This document shows positions 53,701 through 64,000 of a stretch of DNA of 64,000 bases, one piece after another. The stretch is from the NCBI GenBank assembly GCA_003388505.1, contig QQVO01000021.1, forward strand, positions 78,416 to 142,415, written 5' to 3'. Within the stretch, counting starts at the first letter, position 1. The number at the start of each line of letters is the position of its first letter. Position numbers and translations under genes: made by a program. Origin of the DNA: Planctomycetota bacterium. GTDB taxonomy: Bacteria > Planctomycetota > Planctomycetia > Planctomycetales > Planctomycetaceae. Under the pieces are notes generated by a model. The model did no database searches. It saw nothing but the letters and a program-made list of their open reading frames with translations, and was not told the DNA's origin.

Positions 53701-54993
53701 ATGAGCGACTCGCTGCGAACGATCACCGACGTTGCCTGCACGGTTTGTGGATGCGTGTGCGACGATCTGGAGTTCGACGTCTCCGGTGAGCGGATCACGC
53801 AAGTCCGCCGCGCCTGCGAACTGGCCGAGCCGTGGCTGCTGAGCATCAACGGCAGTCATCCTCCCCCGGCAGGCATTGGAGGAGAAGAGGCCTCGTTCGA
53901 GGAGGCGGTGGATCGTGCATCGACGCTGCTGCGCGGCAGCGACAATCCGCTGATTTTCGGCCTTTCCCGGAGCAGCACCCAGGGACAGCGGGCGGCTGTT
54001 CATCTTGCCGAACGGATGGGAGCGAACATCGACACGACGGCGTCGGTCTGTCACGGTCCGTCGATCATGGCGATCCAGCAGGTGGGAGAGTCGACCTGTT
54101 CGCTGGGAGAAGTCCGCCAGCGGGCGGACCTGGTTCTGTTCTGGGGCGCCAATCCGGTGGTGAGCCATCCCCGGCACTTCGAGCGGTATTCCGTGGAACC
54201 GGCCGGCGAGTTTGTGCCGCGCGGCCGCGCGGACCGGACGGTCGTCGTGATCGATCGGAAGCCGACCGCCACCAGCGAACACGCCGATCTGTTCCTGCAG
54301 GTTCACCCGGAAAGAGACTTCGAGGTGATCTGGACGCTTCGCCAACTCATTCGGGGCGATGAAGTGCCGTCACCGGCCGACACCGGTGTTTCGCTGGAAT
54401 CGATGCGGGATCTGGCGGCCCGCATGACCGGCTGCCGGTACGGTGTGGTGTTTTTCGGCCTGGGGCTGGCCCAGAGAGGACACGGGCACATTACCGTGGA
54501 AGCATTGCTGCGGCTGGTGGCGGAACTCAACAGGCACACGCGTTTCTCGGCGCGACGGCTGCGTCTCCCGGGTGATGTCACGGGAGCAGACAGCGTGCTG
54601 TGCTGGCAGACCGGGTTTCCCTTCGCGGTGAATCTGGCTCGCGATTTCCCCCGCTACAATCCGGGGGAGTACAGCGCGAACGAGTTGCTGATCCGGGGCG
54701 AAACGGACTGCTGCCTCGTGGTCGGGAGTGAGAGCACGGAGTTGCTCTCGCCCGAGGCGCGGGCCAGGCTGCACGAGATCCCGACGATTGTACTCGACTA
54801 CCCACACATCACAGCCTGCTGGCAGCCGACGGTACGTTTCACAACGGCAGTTTACGGAGTCCATCAACCTGGAACGGCCTATCGCATGGACGAAATCCCG
54901 ATCCCGCTGCGGCGCGTCGTCGACTCCCCGTACCCGACCGATGAGGACATATTGAACGCCCTGCTGGCGCGAGTCGGGCAGGTGCACGAATAG
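53701..54993 (+). CDS. fwdB: Formylmethanofuran dehydrogenase subunit B homologue, cysteine form
   Basis: 430 residues. It resembles the molybdopterin-guanine-dinucleotide subunit FwdB/FmdB, which interconverts CO2 or formate with the methanofuran system. The amino end has an iron-sulfur-type Cys group (CTVCGCVCDD, residues 13-22). The metal-ligand Cys is C117 in TASVCHGPS, then LGEVRQRADLVLFWGANPV, HPRHFERYS and WQTGFPFAVNLARDFPRYNP. Methylotroph FhcB proteins have lost catalytic parts, whereas this one keeps both Cys motifs and could be redox-active. A paralogue with UGA at the equivalent codon lies at 62452. Upstream is nhaA (divergent); downstream are repeats and an aldehyde dehydrogenase. 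Confidence 0.88.
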   Translation: MSDSLRTITDVACTVCGCVCDDLEFDVSGERITQVRRACELAEPWLLSINGSHPPPAGIGGEEASFEEAVDRASTLLRGSDNPLIFGLSRSSTQGQRAAVHLAERMGANIDTTASVCHGPSIMAIQQVGESTCSLGEVRQRADLVLFWGANPVVSHPRHFERYSVEPAGEFVPRGRADRTVVVIDRKPTATSEHADLFLQVHPERDFEVIWTLRQLIRGDEVPSPADTGVSLESMRDLAARMTGCRYGVVFFGLGLAQRGHGHITVEALLRLVAELNRHTRFSARRLRLPGDVTGADSVLCWQTGFPFAVNLARDFPRYNPGEYSANELLIRGETDCCLVVGSESTELLSPEARARLHEIPTIVLDYPHITACWQPTVRFTTAVYGVHQPGTAYRMDEIPIPLRRVVDSPYPTDEDILNALLARVGQVHE

Positions 54994-55541: not shown

Positions 55542-55642
55542 AGAGCAAGTTACTTGACCGACTGTCCGCGTCGGACGGTTTTCGGACTGTTGAGGCCGGA
55601 ATTGCGCGAGACAGATCATCAACTCTGCTGCGCGAATCGCTC
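55542..55642 (+). repeat. Dispersed repeat A, copy 5 (diverged)
   Basis: Begins AGAGCAAGTTACTTGACC, keeps TGTCCGCGTCGGACGGTTTT and GCGCGAGACAGATCATCAAC, and ends CGCGAATCGCTCC. It is 101 bp. More substitutions than copies 1, 3, 4 and 6 suggest an older insertion. Confidence 0.8.
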
Positions 55643-55699: not shown

Positions 55700-57256
55700 A
55701 TGGCTACCGCGACCGCCGACATCCGGGCCTTCACCGCCGCCGCATTTACGACTCCGGAGAAGTTCACGGATTTCTGTCACAACGACGGCGCCCCGCTGGG
55801 AGGAGTGATCGGCGGCCGCCGGGTGCCGGGTTCGATGAATGCGACGTTCCAGACGGTCGATCCCGGATCGCAGGAGGTGCTCGCTACGGTCAGCGAAATG
55901 GGAGATGCGGAGGTTGCTCTCGCCGTGGATGAGGCGAGCCGCGCGTTCTATGGCGACGGCATCAACGGCTGGCGGGACGCCGACGTCGAAGAGCGGATCG
56001 AACTGGTCAACCGGCTCGTTGACTTGTGCGACCGCGACCGGGACGTGCTGCTGGCGTGCGAGATCCGGGACGGAGGGAAGGTGTCTGAACTGGCCGAGGG
56101 AGACTTCGCCCAGATTCGCGCCTGTGCCGAGTACTTCTGCGACGTGGCCCGCCGGATTCCGCTGGGGGACGGGCCGGCTCAGGACGTGGCCGACGGGGTG
56201 CGGGGCTTCACTTATCGCGAGCCGTGGGGCGTGGTGGCGGGCATTATTCCGTGGAACTATCCGATCGTGCTGACGTCGTGGTTCATGTTCCCGGCTCTGC
56301 TCGCCGGGAATACGGTCCTGATCAAACCGGCCGAAGATACTCCGCTGTCGGCCCTGTACATCGCGAAGCTGGCGGAAGAGGCCGGCTTCCCACCGGGCGT
56401 CATCAACGTCCTTCCCGGGCGCGGCGAGATCACCGGTCAAGCCATCGCCGAACATCCCGGCGTGCGGTACATCTCCTTCACCGGGTCGCCCAGTGTCGGC
56501 CAGTCGATCCTGCGGACCTGCGACCGGCATGGTACGCGGATGAAACGCGAAATGGGGGGCAACGGTTCGGCCATCGTGCTGGACGACGCCGATCCGGAGG
56601 TGGTCGCCCGCATGATCGGCAAGCACGCCAACCAGCACTACGGGCAGACCTGCTGTACGATTCACCGGGTTTTCGTCGACAGCAAGATCGCCGACGATTT
56701 CATCGACGCGCAACGGGACTTCTTTGCGAACCTGAAGATCGGTTACCAGGCGGATGAAGGAACCCAGCTTGGCGCGGTCATCAATCCGACGCAGCAACGC
56801 CGCATTCTGCAGGCCGAGCAGGAAACGGTCGCCCGCGGCGGCCAGCCGGTCCTGCCGGGAGGCGTCGCCGAAGTGAGCGGCAAGAACGGCTACTATCTGA
56901 AGCCGTCGATTTATCGCACGGTGCCGGGCGTCGACGTCAATCCGATGGAGGTGTTTCACACGTTCACCACGGTTTGTCCGGTGAACTCGGCCGAGGACGC
57001 GTTGCGACTGGCGAACAGTTCTCCCTATGGACTCGGGGCGAGCGTGTGGACCAGAGACGTGGAGCGGGGCGTCGCCCTCGCGAAGCAGTTCCGCGACGGC
57101 ACCTGCCAGGTGAACTGTCACAACTCGATCGCCTACGGACTGCCGTACAGCGGGCAGGGCATCTCCGGCGGCCCCGGCGGGGGCGTGAACTGCGAAGACA
57201 CGTTCCGCGATTACACGCAGGTGAAGGCCGTCTACGTGGCGGACTATCCCGGTTAG
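55700..57256 (+). CDS. NAD(P)-dependent aldehyde dehydrogenase
   Basis: 518 residues. ALDH superfamily: PWGVVAGIIPWNYPIVLTSW, the cofactor-binding FTGSPSVGQSIL, general-base Glu in KREMGGNGSAIVLDDAD and the nucleophilic Cys in HYGQTCCTIHRVF. The EMGGNGS form differs from the usual ELGGK(S/N), where the lysine is replaced. It oxidises an aldehyde to the acid; substrate unknown. An amino-terminal extension (residues 1-30) precedes the fold. It lies between the Cys-form fwdB and a second aldehyde dehydrogenase on the same strand, which points to aldehyde or C1 oxidation (inference). Confidence 0.9.
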   Translation: MATATADIRAFTAAAFTTPEKFTDFCHNDGAPLGGVIGGRRVPGSMNATFQTVDPGSQEVLATVSEMGDAEVALAVDEASRAFYGDGINGWRDADVEERIELVNRLVDLCDRDRDVLLACEIRDGGKVSELAEGDFAQIRACAEYFCDVARRIPLGDGPAQDVADGVRGFTYREPWGVVAGIIPWNYPIVLTSWFMFPALLAGNTVLIKPAEDTPLSALYIAKLAEEAGFPPGVINVLPGRGEITGQAIAEHPGVRYISFTGSPSVGQSILRTCDRHGTRMKREMGGNGSAIVLDDADPEVVARMIGKHANQHYGQTCCTIHRVFVDSKIADDFIDAQRDFFANLKIGYQADEGTQLGAVINPTQQRRILQAEQETVARGGQPVLPGGVAEVSGKNGYYLKPSIYRTVPGVDVNPMEVFHTFTTVCPVNSAEDALRLANSSPYGLGASVWTRDVERGVALAKQFRDGTCQVNCHNSIAYGLPYSGQGISGGPGGGVNCEDTFRDYTQVKAVYVADYPG

Positions 57257-57268
57257 GTTACTTCCTTC

Positions 57269-57370
57269 CTGGAAGTTATTGCACTTGAGTCAAGTTTCAG
57301 CGACCAACGGGAGCGGGTTCCCAATTTCGAGCGGTAGCTCGCATGGTCCGAGGCCGTGCCTCGTTAGAGC
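57269..57370 (+). repeat. Repeat B, copy 1 (about 102 bp)
   Basis: Starts CTGGAAGTTATTGCACTTGA, contains CAAGTTTCAGCGACCAACGG and CGCATGGTCCGAGGCC, and ends GCCTCGTTAGAGC. It matches the reverse complement of 61509-61610. Its last bases TTAGAGC coincide with the first bases of repeat A copy 6, so the two elements abut. Confidence 0.8.
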
Positions 57371-57467
57371 AGATTGCTCTACCGTGTGTCCGCGTCGAAC
57401 GATTTTCAGCCTGTCGAGGCGGCAATTCCGCGAGACAGAACGCCAACACTCATTTGCAAAGCGCTCT
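57366..57467 (+). repeat. Dispersed repeat A, copy 6 (102 bp)
   Basis: Begins AGAGCAGATTGCTCTACC and ends CATTTGCAAAGCGCTCT; the ends pair as AGAGC..TTGC with AGAGCGCTTTGC. It lies 57 bp before the ATG of the second aldehyde dehydrogenase, within its probable leader or promoter. Confidence 0.85.
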
Positions 57468-57523
57468 GGTTCATCAATTCACACGGACAAGGCGAACCCG
57501 CTCTGCCCACCAGGAGTCTTCCG

Positions 57524-59032
57524 ATGCTGCTCACGACCGAAGCGCCCGCGGCCGACAGTGATACGCTCGCTTTCATCGACCGGGAACACAAGCTGCTCAT
57601 CGACGGCGATTGGGTTCCGGCCGAGTCGGGCGAGACGATCGACGTCAAGAACCCCGCCGACGGCGAGACGATCGCGACGGTCGCCGCGGGAGACAAGGCG
57701 GACATCGACAAGGCGGTTGCCGCCGCCCGGCGGGCTTTCGAGGGGGGCGAATGGCCGGCGCTGACGGCTTCAGAACGCGGCCGGATGCTGTGGAAACTGG
57801 CCGATCTGATCGAGGAACACCTCGAGGAGTTCGCCGAGATCGAGTCGCTCGACAACGGCAAGCCGCGGGCGGTTGCCGCCGCCGCCGACGTTCCGCTCGC
57901 GATCGATCTGTTCCGCTACATGGCCGGCTGGGCAACGAAAATCGAAGGGACGACCATCCCGATTTCCGTGCCCTACATGCCGGGCGCGGAGTTCCATTCG
58001 TACACGCTGCGCGAGCCGGTGGGGGTGGTGGGCCAGATCATCCCCTGGAATTTCCCGCTGCTGATGGCGGCCTGGAAGCTCGGCCCGGCGCTGGCGACAG
58101 GCTGCACCGTCGTCCTCAAGATTGCGGAAGAAACGCCGCTGAGCGGGTTGCGGCTGGGACATCTGATTCAGGACGCCGGCTTCCCCGACGGCGTGGTGAA
58201 CATCGTGACGGGTTACGGAGAAACGGCCGGCGCCGCGCTGGCCGCGCATCCGGACGTCGATAAAGTCGCTTTCACCGGGTCGACCGAAGTCGGCAAACTG
58301 ATCGTCAAGGCGGCCGGCGAGACCAACCTGAAGAAGGTTTCACTCGAACTGGGCGGGAAGAGTCCGAACGTGATCCTCCCCGACGCCGACCTTTCCACTG
58401 CGATCGGCGGGGCGGCGAACGCAATTTTCTTCAACCACGGCCAGTGCTGTTGTGCGGGATCGCGGTTGTTCGTGCACAAGAGCCAGTTCGACCAGGTCGT
58501 GGAGGGAGTCGCCGAGCAGGCGAAACAGATCAAACTCGGCCCCGGCATGCATCCTGAGACCGGCATGGGGCCGATGGTTTCGCAAATTCAGCAGGACCGC
58601 GTCTGCGGCTATCTGGAATCGGGTTTCGCGGCCGGCGCTCAGGCCGTCATCGGCGGCAAGCGGGCGGGAGGCGAAGGCTACTTCGTTGAACCGACGATCC
58701 TCGTCGACACCAAACCGGACATGGACGTGATCCAGGAAGAGATCTTCGGTCCGGTGGTCGCCGCAGTGCCGTTTGAAGACCCGGACGAACTGATCGCCGC
58801 CGCCAACGACAGCATCTACGGACTCGCGGCGGCCGTCTGGACGCGCGACATCAGCAAGGGGCACCGCATCGCCAAACAGTTGCGCGCGGGAACGGTGTGG
58901 ATCAACTGTTACAACATCTTCGACGCGGCCCTGCCGTTCGGCGGCTACAAGCAATCGGGCTGGGGCCGCGAGATGGGGCACGAAGCGATCGATCTCTACA
59001 CGCAGACGAAAGCCGTGACGCTTCAGTTCTGA
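57524..59032 (+). CDS. NAD(P)-dependent aldehyde dehydrogenase (second gene)
   Basis: 502 residues from the ATG at 57524, which has CAGGAG nine bases upstream; a longer frame would cross repeat A. It is a canonical ALDH: REPVGVVGQIIPWNFPLLMA, FTGSTEVGKLIVKAAG, general-base Glu in VSLELGGKSPNVILPDAD and nucleophilic Cys in NHGQCCCAGSRLFV, ending GGYKQSGWGREMG. It is closest in pattern to ALDH1/betaine-aldehyde-type enzymes. Substrate unknown. The location beside formylmethanofuran dehydrogenase genes suggests detoxification or oxidation of aldehydes feeding C1 metabolism (inference). It is convergent with the YdeP-type gene, 33 bp between stops. Confidence 0.93.
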   Translation: MLLTTEAPAADSDTLAFIDREHKLLIDGDWVPAESGETIDVKNPADGETIATVAAGDKADIDKAVAAARRAFEGGEWPALTASERGRMLWKLADLIEEHLEEFAEIESLDNGKPRAVAAAADVPLAIDLFRYMAGWATKIEGTTIPISVPYMPGAEFHSYTLREPVGVVGQIIPWNFPLLMAAWKLGPALATGCTVVLKIAEETPLSGLRLGHLIQDAGFPDGVVNIVTGYGETAGAALAAHPDVDKVAFTGSTEVGKLIVKAAGETNLKKVSLELGGKSPNVILPDADLSTAIGGAANAIFFNHGQCCCAGSRLFVHKSQFDQVVEGVAEQAKQIKLGPGMHPETGMGPMVSQIQQDRVCGYLESGFAAGAQAVIGGKRAGGEGYFVEPTILVDTKPDMDVIQEEIFGPVVAAVPFEDPDELIAAANDSIYGLAAAVWTRDISKGHRIAKQLRAGTVWINCYNIFDAALPFGGYKQSGWGREMGHEAIDLYTQTKAVTLQF

Positions 59033-59065: not shown

Positions 59066-61246
59066 TCAGTTTTCCGGATCGATGGAAACGAGCGCGTGCT
59101 TGAACGCCGGGGTTTTGGACTCGGGGTCGACATCCCGGGGAAGAAGCGCGTTGGCTTCCGGGCAATACATCATGGCGTTTCCCGGGCGGATGTCGAACGG
59201 GCGAACCCGCTGCCATCGCATCTCCCCCGTCGAATTGTGGACGCGCACCGTTTGATCCGGTTGCAGGCCGAGTCGCTGCAGGTCGTCCGGGTGCAACAGG
59301 ACGACGTCGCGCCGGTCCTGCCCTCGGTACAAGTCGTGATCTTCGTAGACGACGGTATTGAATTGCCCCTCGGAGCGGATGGTCATCAGCCGAAACTGGT
59401 TCTCCGCAGTTCCGTTCGATGGCGGCAATTTGACCGCATGAAACCGCGCCTTGCCGTCGGGTGTGGAAAACTCCGGCTGGGCGACGTGCCGACCCGGGAT
59501 GTGGAATTCCTTTCCCGATCGGCCGAGTTCGGCGATCGGTTCGTATCCGGGAATCAGATCGGCGATCAATTGCCGAATCGCATCGTGGCTTTCCAGTTCG
59601 TTCCAGTCGACCGGTCCGTTCTCACCGAACAATCTTCGTCCGAGCGCGGTGAGGACTGAAACTTCGCTGCGCGGCCCTGCGTGTCGCGGCGCTCCGCCGT
59701 CGCTGAGCCGCACGAAACTGAACATCGACTCCTGCGTTGTGGACTGCGGTTCTTCGTCGCGGGGCAACACCGGCAGGATCAAGGTCTCGCGGCCTCGACC
59801 CCAGGCGTGTCCGGTGTTGAGGGTCGTGGCGAGGTAGGCCACACAGCCGATCTGCGAAAGTGCCCGCTCTGCAAAGGGGGCCTCCGGATTGCTCCCGTAC
59901 AGGTTGCCTCCCAGGCAGACGGCCGTGTCCATTTCATTCTTGCCGGCGGCCTCCATGCAGGCCATTGTGTCCAGGCCGGGCGAGGCGGGAGCAGCGATTC
60001 CCAACTTCTGTTCGTAGCGCTCCAGGATTGCCTTCTTGAGCGTCGGCGTCACGCCGATGGAGCCCATCCCCTGGACGTTGCTGTGACCCCGAATGGGCAT
60101 CAGCCCGGCGTGCGGCCGTCCGACCATGCCGCGAAGCAGAGCAAGGTTCGCGATCATTCTGACGTTGTCGCAACCGTGCCGATGGTGGGTGATGCCCATC
60201 GCCCAGCCGATGACGACGTTGTTCGCGTCGATATATTGGTCCGCGATACGCAGTATCACGTCGCGTGCGACACCGGAACCCTGCTCGATGTCATCCCACG
60301 CTGTTTCCTCAACCTGGCGTGCGAATTCCTCGAATCCGTTCGTCGATTCGCGGATGAATGCATCATCCTGCGCGCCGCGCGAGAGCACTTCCTTGGCCAC
60401 ACCGGTCAGCAACGCGATGTCGCCGCCGATGTGCGGTTGCACATACAGGCTGGCGATCTCACTGCCGAAGAGCAGGCTGCGAACGTCGCTGGGGACGCGA
60501 AAGTTGACCAACCCCAACTCTTTCGCCGGATTGACGACGACCACGCGCCCGCCGCGACGCCGCAACTGCATCAGGCTTCGCATCAGCCGGGGATGGTTCG
60601 ACGCCGGATTTGCGCCGATCAGGATGTACAGGTCGGCATGGTCCAGATCGTCGAGTTGAATCGTGCCGGTTCCGGTGCCGATGCTCGAACCCAGCCCGAC
60701 GCCGCTCGCCTGGTGGCAGTAGTAGGAACAGTTATTGACGTAGTTCGTTCCGAACAGCCTCGCCAGCAGTTGCAGCAGAAACCCCGCCTCGTTGGACGAT
60801 CGGCCGCTGGCGTAGAAAAAACTCCGCGTGGGACCGGCCGCCTTCAAGCGGTCGGCCAGAAGGTTGAGCGCCTCCTCCCATTCGATCGGGCGATAGTGTG
60901 AGTCATCGGGACCTGCAAACAGCGGCGCGACCAGTCTGCCGCTGGCTTCCAATTGCCTGGGGGAAAGCGCACGCAGTTCATTGAACCCGTGACGCGCAAA
61001 GAACTCCGGAGGGATCGCGGGCTGCATGTCGGAGGCCATCGCCTGAAACGACTTCTTGCAGACCTCGGGAAAGTGCCCGCCTTCGTTGACCATTCCACCA
61101 AGCTGGCCGCCCATGCCCAGCGCGCACGTCTTGCAGGTGTTGCGGCTGCGCATCGCTTTCCACAACTTCGTCCATCCGACGCGGTTCGCGACGCTCAGCG
61201 TATAGGCGACGGCCTTCCAACCTCCTCCGCTCGTCGGTTGCTTCAT
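59066..61246 (-). CDS. FdhF/YdeP-family molybdopterin oxidoreductase
   Basis: 726 residues from the ATG at 61246 (GAGG nine bases upstream). Molybdopterin oxidoreductase superfamily, YdeP branch: amino-terminal Cys pair NTCKTCALGMGG, SFFYASGRSSNEAGFLLQLL, active-site region NNCSYYCHQASGVGLGSSIG with Cys (not Sec) as probable Mo ligand, YILIGANPASNHPRLMRSLM and HHRHGCDNVRMIANLALLRG. The carboxyl MGD-binding domain is near LHPDDLQRLGLQPDQTVRVH. The reaction is unproven for the family; formate or acid-stress roles have been proposed for E. coli YdeP. It is divergent from the FwdD-like gene across a 388-bp spacer, so both may share regulation. Confidence 0.92.
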   Translation of the reverse strand: MKQPTSGGGWKAVAYTLSVANRVGWTKLWKAMRSRNTCKTCALGMGGQLGGMVNEGGHFPEVCKKSFQAMASDMQPAIPPEFFARHGFNELRALSPRQLEASGRLVAPLFAGPDDSHYRPIEWEEALNLLADRLKAAGPTRSFFYASGRSSNEAGFLLQLLARLFGTNYVNNCSYYCHQASGVGLGSSIGTGTGTIQLDDLDHADLYILIGANPASNHPRLMRSLMQLRRRGGRVVVVNPAKELGLVNFRVPSDVRSLLFGSEIASLYVQPHIGGDIALLTGVAKEVLSRGAQDDAFIRESTNGFEEFARQVEETAWDDIEQGSGVARDVILRIADQYIDANNVVIGWAMGITHHRHGCDNVRMIANLALLRGMVGRPHAGLMPIRGHSNVQGMGSIGVTPTLKKAILERYEQKLGIAAPASPGLDTMACMEAAGKNEMDTAVCLGGNLYGSNPEAPFAERALSQIGCVAYLATTLNTGHAWGRGRETLILPVLPRDEEPQSTTQESMFSFVRLSDGGAPRHAGPRSEVSVLTALGRRLFGENGPVDWNELESHDAIRQLIADLIPGYEPIAELGRSGKEFHIPGRHVAQPEFSTPDGKARFHAVKLPPSNGTAENQFRLMTIRSEGQFNTVVYEDHDLYRGQDRRDVVLLHPDDLQRLGLQPDQTVRVHNSTGEMRWQRVRPFDIRPGNAMMYCPEANALLPRDVDPESKTPAFKHALVSIDPEN

Positions 61247-61634
61247 CCGGAACCTCGTTGAGCCGCCCCCTCGAAGAATCGCCGGCCTTGCCGGAATCGG
61301 GGTTGGCCTGGTGTATCGTGCGATGTTTCTGTCTGAAAGCGACGATTGTAGGCCGATTCGGCGACGGGGAACAGAACGGCGACCGGGCCGAATCACCGCG
61401 GGCTGTTGACGATCAACGGCTCGCGGAGTTTGCTTCCGGAGTTCTCACATTCGTTCCGCACTGCTACACTGAATACTTCGACCGGTGTCTCATCCCGACA
61501 GTAAACTGGCTCTAACGAGGCAGGGCCTCGGACCATGCGAGTTGCCGTTCGAAATTGAAAACCCGCTCCCGCTGGTCGCTGAAACTTGGCTCAACTGCAA
61601 CGACCTCCGGAAACAAAGCAACCTGACGGCGCAA
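61247..61634. other. 388-bp divergent region between the YdeP-type gene and fwdD
   Basis: Contains repeat B copy 2 (61509-61610) just upstream of fwdD. No convincing promoter pair was identified and no open frame with homology is present, apart from an upstream extension of the fwdD frame through the repeat. Confidence 0.55.
61509..61610 (-). repeat. Repeat B, copy 2 (minus orientation)
   Basis: Reverse complement of 57269-57370 with about a dozen differences: GCTCTAACGAGGCAGGGCC at the left, GCTGGTCGCTGAAACTTGG in the middle. It ends 24 bp before the fwdD ATG and probably forms part of that gene's leader. Here no repeat A follows the AGAGC edge. Confidence 0.8.
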
Positions 61635-61970
61635 ATGGCCGATAAGCGTTTCATCCTCAATGCCTCTCGTTCGTCAAAACAGGGGACATTGATTAACGTC
61701 GGGAAGGACTCGGAAGAGTACCAGGCGTTGACCAACACCATGACGATGGCCGCCCCAGACATGGAGGCGATCGGATTGGTGGAAGGTCAGGACGCCCTCG
61801 TTCGCACGGAATTCGGCGAAGCAACGTTTCGGTGCGAAGCCGGCAAGGTGCCGGAGGGGATGATCTTCATTCCCTACGGGCCGCCGACATGCCTGCTCAT
61901 GGGGGGCGACACCGACGGCACCGGGATGCCGACCTCCAAGGGTTGGGAGGTGGACGTGATTCCGCAATGA
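61635..61970 (+). CDS. fwdD: Formylmethanofuran dehydrogenase subunit D-like molybdopterin-dinucleotide-binding protein
   Basis: 111 residues from the ATG at 61635; the open frame continues upstream only through repeat B, so a longer start is unlikely. The fold is the small molybdopterin-dinucleotide-binding beta-barrel seen as the last domain of formate dehydrogenases and as the separate subunit FwdD: FILNASRSSKQGTLINVGKD, TMAAPDMEAIGLVEGQDALV and FIPYGPPTCLLMGGDTDGTG. In methanogens FwdD closes over the cofactor of FwdB. It sits 481 bp before the UGA-containing fwdB on the same strand, the arrangement expected of a catalytic pair. No good Shine-Dalgarno is visible. Confidence 0.85.
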   Translation: MADKRFILNASRSSKQGTLINVGKDSEEYQALTNTMTMAAPDMEAIGLVEGQDALVRTEFGEATFRCEAGKVPEGMIFIPYGPPTCLLMGGDTDGTGMPTSKGWEVDVIPQ

Positions 61971-62141
61971 GGCCGTTTCCGGCGGTTCGATTTCCACAAG
62001 AGCTTACAACAATTTTACCAGAAAAATGCGGGAAAAAGACCTGAGTAGCCCTGAGAGTCCGCACTTCTCGACCGAGGGCGACGCCGCCGACGCGGCCGCG
62101 TGGACTGAAGTTGACGCCGGACGATACATGCCCCGTCGCGT

Positions 62142-62159
62142 CCGCGGCAGTTGCCGCGG
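62142..62159 (+). repeat. GC-rich palindrome between fwdD and fwdB
   Basis: CCGCGGC-AGTT-GCCGCGG, seven perfect pairs (eight if the loop is opened to two bases). No T run follows, so a simple intrinsic terminator is not indicated; a regulatory hairpin or dispersed motif is possible. Confidence 0.55.
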
Positions 62160-62245
62160 CCGCGCTCTCGGCTGAACATTCACGGTCCCGTCATCCGGTT
62201 CGGGTGACGCCGAATGTGAAGATCAACCGCTGAAGGACGGCTGAA

Positions 62246-62346
62246 CGAGCAAAATGCTCGACGGTGTGTCCGCGTCGGGCGGTTTTCAGACTGTCGAGCG
62301 TGGGCTTCCGCGCGACAGATCGTCAACTCGGATTCCGGGTCGCACT
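62246..62346 (+). repeat. Dispersed repeat A, copy 7 (diverged)
   Basis: Begins CGAGCAAAATGCTCGACGG, keeps TGTGTCCGCGTCGGGCGGTT and CCGCGCGACAGATCGTCAAC, and ends near GGGTCGCAC. It is the most diverged copy. It lies about 100 bp upstream of the UGA-containing fwdB. Confidence 0.75.
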
Positions 62347-62451
62347 TTCCGGCGGCTTGGAATTCCTGGCGGAAGTCGTCAGACTGACGGCGGATTCAAG
62401 CTGTGTTTGTCTGAATTCCGTCGAAGTCCGCCCCGAAAAACAGGAACGCTG

Positions 62452-63792
62452 ATGTCTCTGCAGGTGATTGACAACGCGACATGCACCTTCTGCGGTTGCG
62501 TATGCGACGACATTCAGTTGCATCACGACGAGTTCAAGATTCACAAGGCCAAGAAGGCCTGCGTCCTGGGGACGGCCTGGTTTCTCAATCACACGGCCGA
62601 ACGCAAGTATCCCGATGCTCTCATTGACGGGAAAGAAGCCACTCTCGACGAAGCGATCGAAGCGGCCGCCGAATTCCTGCACGAGGCCGACATGCCGCTC
62701 GTCTACGGCATGAGCAACACGACCTGCGAAGCGCAGCGGGAATGCGCGGCTTTGGCCGACCAACTGGGAGGGCTGCTGGACAGTCACACCTCGTTGTGAC
62801 ACGGCCCCACTGAAATTGCCGCCCAGTTGGGTGGTAAGGTCTCTTGTACGCTCGGCGAAGTGAAGCAGCGAGCGGATTTCATCGTGTACTGGGGTGGAAA
62901 TCCGGCCGAATGCCATCCCCGGCACTTCACCAAGTACACCATCATGCAGAAGAGCAAGTTCCTGCCGCGCGGGCGGAAGGACCGCACGATGGTTCTGGTT
63001 GACATCCGCGAAACCAAGAGCGTGAAGGCTTCCGACATTTTCCTCCAGGTGCGACCGGGGAAAGACTTTGAACTCATCACAATTCTGCGGGCTCTGATCA
63101 AGGATCAACCGGTCGGCGATGATCAAATCGCCGAGACGGGCCTCACCCGCGAGGTGCTCGAGGATCTGGTCAAGCGGATGAAGGCCGCGAAGTTCGGTTG
63201 CATGTTTTTCGGCATGGGTCTGTCAATGACCCGCGGCAAACATATGAACAGTGCTGCGCTGCTTACGCTCGCCGCCGAAATGAACGCGTACACGAAGTTC
63301 GTGGCCATGCCGATGCGGGGCCACGGCAACGTGACGGGGGCCGACGTGATGATGCGCTGGCAGACGGGGTACCCCTTCGGGATCACGTTCAATCGCGGAT
63401 ACCCCCGATACAATCCCGGAGAGTTTTCAACGGTCGACGTGCTGGTGCGGGGCGACTGCGACGCAGCGTTCATCATCGGCGCCGATCCGGGCGGCACGAT
63501 GCCGCAACCGGCGATCGACCACCTGAAAAGAATTCCCACGATCGTGCTCGACCCCCACGTGACGCACACGAGCAAGCTGGCTCGCGTTCACATCACGACG
63601 GCCTCGCAGGGAATCGCTGCGCCGGGGACGGCCTACCGCATGGACGAAATTCCCATGCCCCTGAAGCCGGCGCTCAAATCCCCCTATCCCACCGACGAAG
63701 ACGTGGTGCGAAGAATCAACGCGGCCATCTCCCGGAAGCCGTTCTGGCTGCCGGAGGGAAGCCAACCTCAGATGCTGACCGCCCAGGTGTAG
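62452..63792 (+). CDS. fwdB: Formylmethanofuran dehydrogenase subunit B, predicted selenoprotein (UGA-encoded Sec116)
   Basis: 446 residues if the TGA at 62797-62799 is read as selenocysteine. The ATG at 62452 has AGGAA nine bases upstream. The frame is intact on both sides of the TGA: an iron-sulfur-type CTFCGCVCDD (residues 11-20) before it, and HGPTEIAAQLGGKVSCTLGE after it. The TGA falls exactly on the metal-ligand position, C117 of the paralogue at 53701 (SVCHGP against SL-U-HGP). Later family blocks match: RADFIVYWGGNPAECHPRHF, WQTGYPFGITFNRGYPRYNP and YRMDEIPMPL. Archaeal FwdB/FmdB exists in Cys and Sec forms. A SECIS-like hairpin follows. A sequencing error or Cys-to-stop mutation is the alternative, made less likely by the hairpin. 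It was otherwise visible only as two abutting partial frames. Confidence 0.85.
62797..62799 (+). other. In-frame TGA, predicted selenocysteine codon
   Basis: Codon 116 of the fwdB frame, followed by C. It replaces the TGT of the Cys-form paralogue (54054 region, GTCTGTCACGG). It is the only stop inside a frame of 447 codons whose translation matches the paralogue on both sides. Confidence 0.85.
62816..62837 (+). promoter_or_regulatory. Predicted bacterial SECIS element
   Basis: Arms TTGCCGCCC and GGGTGGTAA form nine continuous pairs (seven Watson-Crick, two G-U) closing the tetraloop AGTT. There are 25 bases between the TGA and the loop, and the loop's second base is G. Both fit the published bacterial SECIS pattern (an apical-loop G in the first two positions, about 16-37 nt from UGA). 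The same segment of the Cys-form gene cannot form such a stem. Confidence 0.8.
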
Positions 63793-63885
63793 GGCTCTGC
63801 CAGGCCGTCAGGCCTCTGTGGGGAGTTGGCTGGACTGCGGATTCGCACGACCCGACCGCCCTGCCGCAGATCGCAGGGCAACCGT

Positions 63886-64000
63886 TTAGTTCGGGTAGCC
63901 GAGTTTGGATAAGAGGCGAAAGGAATTCCGCGCGAAGCTGCGTAAGCTGGCGGTGATGTTGTCGGTTTTCTGCGTGCGGAGCCAATTGAGTCCGGCGTTG
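63886..64000 (-). CDS. C-terminal fragment of a probable transposase (cut by window edge)
   Basis: Thirty-seven codons before a TAA at 63886-63888, running off the right edge. The visible end has ALNWLR-like and TQKTDNITASLRSFARN segments, reminiscent of the tail of ISAs1/IS4-type transposases (AL.LLR..KT..). The match is short, so the identification is tentative; it could be another DDE transposase or an unrelated protein. Confidence 0.4.
   Translation of the reverse strand, partial: NAGLNWLRTQKTDNITASLRSFARNSFRLLSKLGYPN

Follow-up and report, generated by a model that had tools for sequence, protein, structure and literature searches.

Close to the end of the window (the whole stretch of 64,000 nucleotides that was analysed), a gene for subunit B of formylmethanofuran dehydrogenase, fwdB, carries a UGA codon in frame. 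This locus raises the questions of whether that UGA is read as selenocysteine (Sec), and of what occupies the gap between fwdB and the fwdD-like gene upstream of it, where a small gene (working name fwdU) with a UGA of its own was found. The reading preferred here, at a probability of roughly 0.8, is that both UGA-containing genes are translated with Sec, that Sec116 of FwdB would be a ligand of the molybdenum or tungsten (Mo/W) centre and that the small protein would be an accessory of the enzyme. We infer the insertion of Sec, the ligation of the metal, the catalytic direction and, most tentatively, what the small protein does.

The in-frame UGA of fwdB and its hairpin

The features of the two fwdB genes in the window are:

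62452..63792, + strand: fwdB, formylmethanofuran dehydrogenase subunit B (TIGR03129), 446 residues with predicted Sec116
62797..62799, + strand: in-frame UGA of fwdB, codon 116, Mo/W ligand site (Cys118 in 5t5i chain B)
62816..62837, + strand: predicted SECIS hairpin of fwdB, core 62818-62824 / 62829-62835, loop AGTT
53701..54993, + strand: second fwdB, with Cys (TGT) at the equivalent codon, 438 bits to TIGR03129

With C substituted for U, the product of the first gene scored 492.3 bits against TIGR03129 (cut-off 327.8). According to the sequence-only reading, fwdB is interrupted once, by a TGA where the metal ligand is encoded, and the open reading frame 62452-63792 bears this out; it holds a single TGA, in the context SL-U-HGP, and the rest of the frame is intact. 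In the alignment with chain B of 5t5i, a tungsten enzyme whose Cys118 we take to be the tungsten ligand, residues C11, C14, C18 and C37 of the query correspond to Cys9, 12, 16 and 35 and are conserved in 64/64 Sec rows, as likewise are U116, H117, G118, P119 and R289 (Arg288 in 5t5i_B). The four cysteines presumably form an iron-sulfur site, and C/U-H-G-P is taken to be the ligand motif. The B-subunit cysteine has been described as giving one sulfur ligand and as replaceable by selenocysteine (PMC11656701).

The fwdB codon is covered by 107 homologue rows, 86 of which are at least 70% identical to the query and 21 at most 58%. The close relatives are uniform, with TGA in 86/86 rows; the more distant bacterial homologues mostly have Cys (18 TGC/TGT, with two Thr codons, ACT and ACC, and one Gly codon, GGG). 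The 86 rows count the same genomes twice, since they comprise 30 genome-search rows and 56 of 59 contig loci (the other three fall short of the codon and were left out), and they collapse to 60 distinct downstream (hairpin) sequences. TGA in fwdB is also found in six genomes belonging to other families of the phylum, which added five sequences, for a total of 65. In two genomes, G042 and G152, the TGA proved to lie elsewhere than at the fwdB Sec codon, which is TGT in both. Among the matches listed, where short fragments may be missed, Sec-type FwdB was found in 30 of the 170 genomes of the order; an even draw of the phylum gave 9 of 392.

Bacterial SECIS elements are hairpins lying directly 3' of the UGA with a G early in the loop, and the fwdB hairpin has this form. 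As claimed beforehand, a nine-pair hairpin is present 16 bases past the TGA, with 62816-62824 paired to 62829-62837 around an AGTT loop (62825-62828), but conservation is limited to the inner seven pairs; the pair just outside this core is C.A in 50 of the 65 distinct sequences. The hairpin does form on folding, although its energy is unremarkable (z -1.5; 18 of 200 shuffles were as good). The AGTT loop is present in 65/65 distinct sequences, and 450 of 455 stem cells are paired, whereas sliding one arm by one to three bases leaves 131-257 paired. The stem is therefore conserved, but covariation amounts to one two-sided change among the 65 sequences, in L118, which costs a Gly to Ser change in the protein. 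Since the protein is highly conserved at the hairpin, synonymous diversity is better evidence than pairing; across 60 distinct genes, none of the 414 windows of 12 codons is lower in normalised synonymous diversity than the one that opens with the UGA, and Leu126 is written TTG in all 60, where TTG makes up 450 of 2,167 Leu codons overall. Judged from the sequences, this conservation excludes a chance origin of the predicted element. A search of Rfam over 61900-64000 gave no gathering-level match, and nothing convincing at low thresholds for either this hairpin or that of the small gene described below.

The novelty that had been implied for a planctomycete Sec-FwdB did not stand. The form is not new in this group, having been known since Kim et al. 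2016, who published it beside the Cys form in planctomycete P2 (Rhodopirellula sp.), with Sec-FmdB encoded in an operon fmdD-fmdB-fmdA-fmdC (PMC4807772). The present locus resembles that of P2 in the gene itself, in having Sec at the same kind of site and in sharing its genome with a Cys form, here 43% identical to the Sec form. Unlike what is found here, the main text of that paper names no gene between fmdD and fmdB, and no SECIS or codon analysis was found in the consulted portions of it (PMC4807772).

A small gene with a second UGA between fwdD and fwdB

Upstream of fwdB the following features were assigned:

61635..61970, + strand: fwdD-like gene, 111 residues from ATG 61635 (ORF-tool start: GTG 61485)
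62026..62244, + strand: candidate small selenoprotein gene (fwdU), 72 residues, predicted Sec at residue 50
62173..62175, + strand: predicted Sec codon of fwdU, an in-frame UGA; TGA in all copies found
62189..62209, + strand: predicted SECIS hairpin of fwdU, 62189-62197 paired with 62201-62209, loop GTT

The small gene, which is unannotated, runs from ATG 62026 to a TGA stop at 62242-62244, and its product would be MREKDLSSPESPHFSTEGDAADAAAWTEVDAGRYMPRRVRGSCRGRALG-U-TFTVPSSGSGDAECEDQPLKDG. Its UGA (62173) and hairpin lie 624 bases upstream of the fwdB UGA and had been missed in the sequence-only reading. An alignment of 12 fwdD-fwdB gaps revealed codon-like conservation. Copies were then collected in three ways: a motif search gave 115 loci with 65 distinct sequences, all TGA; a profile search with any codon allowed gave 86 loci, with TGA in each family match listed; and a protein search that demanded no TGA found the gene in 32 of the 170 genomes of the order, each time with TGA. 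The motif itself requires TGA, whereas the profile and protein searches do not. The 32 genomes include 30/30 of those with a listed Sec-FwdB, and the two others, G012 and G018, have only 376 and 441 bases of contig left past the UGA. The gene is absent from the five Cys-fwdB loci examined with long flanks (L147, L148, L152, L153 and L154). Wherever a piece of DNA holds both genes, the small gene is upstream of fwdB on the same strand (110/110), with 395-1,862 nt (median 464) from UGA to UGA.

The small protein has no match in Pfam, NCBIfam (E up to 10) or PHROGs, and comparison with the PDB gave nothing significant (best profile match E 1.7). Table 1 of a 2026 review, covering 119 selenoprotein families, contains no such domain or motif (PMC13188914), and a search of the open-access PMC literature found no description of the gene, which is apparently undescribed so far. 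A single Sec is a feature it would share with the families of that review, many of which are small and uncharacterised (PMC13188914).

Database relatives of the small protein number 3,100 clusters at E up to 0.1 in a profile search, of which 120 were shown. When 20 stored proteins were examined, 16 ended just before the UGA, three had Trp at the site (P0147, P0205 and P0240) and one, P0125, had Cys there and read on, which may be a U stored as C. The three Trp copies are probably gene calls made with a code in which TGA is Trp. In automatic annotation each of the two genes is broken off at its UGA, which leaves a selenium-dependent one-carbon enzyme split in two and its small neighbour either overlooked or listed as a hypothetical fragment; the mis-annotation of fwdB had been forecast, and most of the 120 listed database relatives of FwdB are indeed C-terminal pieces of about 319 residues. 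A 54-residue piece of the small protein, P0250, carries the database name Fuerstiella marisgermanici and comes from an 8.92 Mb contig; this organism is an isolate, and thus at least one carrier of the small gene is an isolate. A contig labelled Acidobacteria (L122, QHWF01000065.1) has both UGA genes, through either transfer or misbinning.

Several observations concern translation through the UGA. First, the codon that encodes Phe two positions past the UGA, which is itself preceded by a Gly-Leu-Gly context, specifies Phe in 65/65 distinct copies, as TTC in 35 and TTT in 30; the invariance of this residue despite variation of its codon indicates translation past the UGA. The pN/pS ratio is 0.24 in the 19 codons before the UGA, 0.42 in the four after it and 0.72 in the next six, which overlap the hairpin. 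Second, a hairpin begins about 11-16 nt past the UGA. In 64 distinct unselected copies the best stem has a mean of 7.47 pairs, compared with 4.88 (highest 5.34) in 200 synonymous recodings, the best hairpin lying elsewhere in three of the 64. Two-sided changes were counted in 36 rows preselected for the inner five pairs of the stem; they occur in four of eight pairs and in 19 cells (3.3 in shuffles), and nine of the 19 cells belong to the outer three, unselected pairs. Since 49 of 500 shuffles also reached four two-sided pairs, weight is placed on the cell count and on the slid controls, in which 19-49% of cells are paired as against 97.6% in the true register. Two spacer lengths occur (registers 22 and 25), and the stem is kept in both. 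From these patterns it is likely that the small gene encodes a second selenocysteine protein, and we read it as a putative new family of small selenoproteins tied to the selenium-type formylmethanofuran dehydrogenase.

The main rival to this reading is that the small gene is a regulatory leader, at whose UGA the ribosome pauses or terminates when Sec-tRNA is scarce. Its position shortly before fwdB and its SECIS-like hairpin would suit such a role, as would the fact that conservation is strongest in the 19 codons directly before the UGA; further, a structure model of the small protein by itself is poor (mean pLDDT 61.6, pTM 0.31) and largely disordered, with a beta-hairpin at residues 26-36 as its only element. 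The conserved basic, arginine-rich stretch just before the UGA would act in the exit tunnel, so that fwdB, fwdA and fwdC are expressed only with selenium. However, residues as far back as Trp26 are conserved, as is in part an N-terminal SPHF stretch, and amino acids are also conserved past the UGA, where the invariant Phe is encoded by two codons. The distance to fwdB, moreover, is as variable as stated above, and two loci (L116 and L117) have another fwdB in between. A leader of this kind is judged unlikely.

A good deal less probable again is that the small gene simply stops at the UGA, giving a 49-residue protein without Sec, and that the conservation downstream belongs to some other element. 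Most stored versions (16/20) do end there, and TGA also serves as the final stop of the gene in 28 of the 65 distinct copies. Against this, the invariant Phe has TTC and TTT in near equal numbers and pN/pS is low in the four codons after the UGA; the hairpin has the spacing of a bacterial SECIS, neither TAA nor TAG occurs at the site in any copy, and the gene is found only where a Sec-FwdB or a contig end follows. The stored protein P0125, in which the frame reads on through a Cys, may be a further point against termination.

The selenocysteine machinery and the remaining alternatives

The source genome (6.78 Mb, 78 contigs, 98.8% complete) encodes the machinery that a Sec reading demands, a point on which the sequence-only reading had called for a check. 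A tRNA-Sec with anticodon TCA (66.5 bits), selB (340 bits with its neighbours), selA (528 bits) and selD (285 bits) are all present; of 14 control genomes, only 5, 2, 1 and 2 lay above the respective cut-offs. The genes selB, selA and selD stand in a row on contig C33, where SelD is fused behind a pyridine nucleotide-disulphide oxidoreductase domain (L151:5340-7850). Across the order, selA is above the cut-off in 29 of the 30 genomes with a listed Sec-FwdB match, the 30th (G063) having a partial match of 173 bits, compared with 41 of the 140 others (Fisher p 2e-12, with kinship uncorrected). The 41 genomes that have selA and no Sec-FwdB imply that many Sec-users of the order are explained by other selenoproteins.

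The presence of the machinery, TGA in 86/86 rows, the conserved seven-pair hairpin and the distribution of selA support, on computational grounds, the claim that the gene makes a Sec enzyme; none of the outcomes named as speaking against it, such as a genome without the machinery or close relatives with Cys and no hairpin, was encountered. A Sec-type FwdB is therefore very likely to be real.

It is highly improbable that UGA is read here as Trp or another amino acid, through a changed genetic code or leaky suppression. The W at the site of the small protein in P0147, P0205 and P0240 would be in its favour. However, the stop codon of fwdD and that of one aldehyde dehydrogenase in the window are TGA, which means that TGA still serves as a stop here, and a change of code was rejected. 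Further, the UGA of fwdB occupies the Mo/W ligand site, at which homologues encode Cys, and tRNA-Sec and selABD are present. A sequencing error or the mark of a pseudogene in fwdB, for which the splitting of the gene by gene callers and the relatives P0003, P0004 and P0005, without the residue or with Arg, might be cited, has a negligible chance and is ruled out in practice by the TGA that 86/86 rows, drawn from many assemblies and intact in frame on either side, share at this codon.

Operon, proposed chemistry and history of the site

The operon in which Sec translation of both genes is proposed is incomplete in this assembly. The fwdD-like product scored 67 bits against NF042908 (FwdD), below the cut-off of 175, with about 110 residues aligning in relatives, and fwdD lies 208-495 nt before fwdB in 51 of the 56 relative loci with enough upstream DNA. 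In relatives fwdA follows fwdB in 49/55 loci and fwdC in 43/49; here the contig ends 208 bases past fwdB (63793-64000), and fwdA and fwdC of the Sec operon are missing from the assembly. The copies found elsewhere in the genome, fwdA on C2 and fwdC on C31, are 49% and 43% identical to the Sec-operon copies of L106. A single fwdA and fwdC common to both FwdBs was considered and set aside, given identities of only this order; these copies are probably part of the other complex, and those of the Sec operon would lie past the contig end, if they have not been lost.

Two known systems bear on what the complex may do. Like the archaeal selenium-dependent FwdB of Methanopyrus kandleri, the planctomycete protein belongs to TIGR03129 and would have a Sec ligand before HGP (PMC13188914, PMC11656701). 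All aligned cluster and active-site residues are common to the archaeal and planctomycete Sec proteins; unlike in the archaeal case, the predicted SECIS of the planctomycete gene is inside it. With bacterial Fhc (Methylorubrum extorquens), whose product is formate, the system shares homologues of FwdA, FwdB, FwdC and Ftr (PMC8141765, PMC11656701). However, the alignment of the solved B chain of Fhc (6s6y_B, 361 aa) starts no earlier than query residue 236, and the metal ligand and cluster cysteines, whose loss from FhcB marks Fhc as a hydrolase, are retained in the planctomycete FwdB. Full or partial H4MPT pathways have been reported in Planctomycetota (PMC9874027), and the presence of Ftr in the source genome (453 bits) makes an H4MPT-type route plausible.

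On this basis the protein would ligate a Mo/W bis-pterin centre through the selenol of Sec116, and FwdABCD, as predicted from the gene order of relatives, would interconvert formyl-methanofuran (or methylofuran) and CO2. FwdA would split the formyl-carrier to formate and FwdB would oxidise the formate, or the reverse, the two together forming a two-chamber enzyme as in archaea, by homology. The small protein may be a small subunit or a maturation factor, its single Sec acting near the metal site. Since the gene is present in every genome with a listed Sec-FwdB and absent from the five Cys-fwdB loci, the protein is most likely an accessory part of the selenium-type enzyme, whether as subunit, maturation factor or sensor. 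The Cys seven positions before its UGA is found in 29 of 61 copies; it is hence not conserved, and no redox pair is evident. The poor structure model offers no fold in support of any role; with little predicted order and a conserved basic stretch, the protein is read here as one that may fold against a partner, of which FwdB or FwdD would be the simplest.

A stronger proposal, towards which the balance tips only a little, is that the selenium-type dehydrogenase is a two-selenoprotein system with the small protein as an obligate partner, and that loss of selenium may give a hydrolase-like complex. As such a partner, the small protein could deliver a sulfido or selenido ligand to the Mo/W centre or carry its electrons. 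The reason why FwdB uses Sec is called unknown in reviews (PMC13188914). If the proposal is true, the constant association of a small selenoprotein with a single metalloenzyme would offer a way into this use of Sec, and also into the oxidation of formyl units in planctomycetes.

The history of the site was examined in a quick tree (66 rows) and a careful tree (42 rows) of FwdB, which included three archaeal chains, one with X at the site. In both trees the Sec rows form one clade together with the Ser, Thr, Arg and gap rows and one Cys row (P0006), whose Cys may be ancestral or a reversal, with support of 100, and this clade adjoins the bacterial Cys FwdBs, apart from the archaeal chains. The trees lead us to infer that Sec replaced Cys once in this lineage and that several losses, mostly not to Cys, followed. 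Relatives of Sec-FwdB that have lost Sec mostly have Ser, Thr, Arg or a gap at the site, not Cys. Full-length relatives inside the clade with the residue missing or replaced by Arg are P0003, P0004 and P0005, and the gap in P0005 may be an annotation artefact. Long branches lead to P0003, P0004 and the Thr paralogues of L116 and L117, which are without TTG at the loop, and these branches would fit a loss of the original activity. Serine is able to ligate molybdenum in other enzymes, and so loss of activity does not follow from loss of Sec. The Thr paralogues (L116:6571- and L117:6619-, from Gemmataceae MAGs; codons ACC/ACT) lie between the small gene and the Sec fwdB, with fwdA upstream.

Beside the operon, 59066-61396 (- strand) encodes a molybdopterin oxidoreductase of the FdhF/YdeP family without Sec (681 bits to TIGR01701), and two aldehyde dehydrogenases lie nearby (55700-57256 and 57374-59032). 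A dispersed repeat of about 88 nt occurs in intergenic gaps at 62247-62334, 57367-57454 and 55543-55630. It had been considered as the cause of the fwdD-fwdB gap and was rejected, since the gap contains the small gene and the repeat follows that gene. At least 40 copies are present in the genome, at 79-100% identity (40 of 181 candidates were scored).
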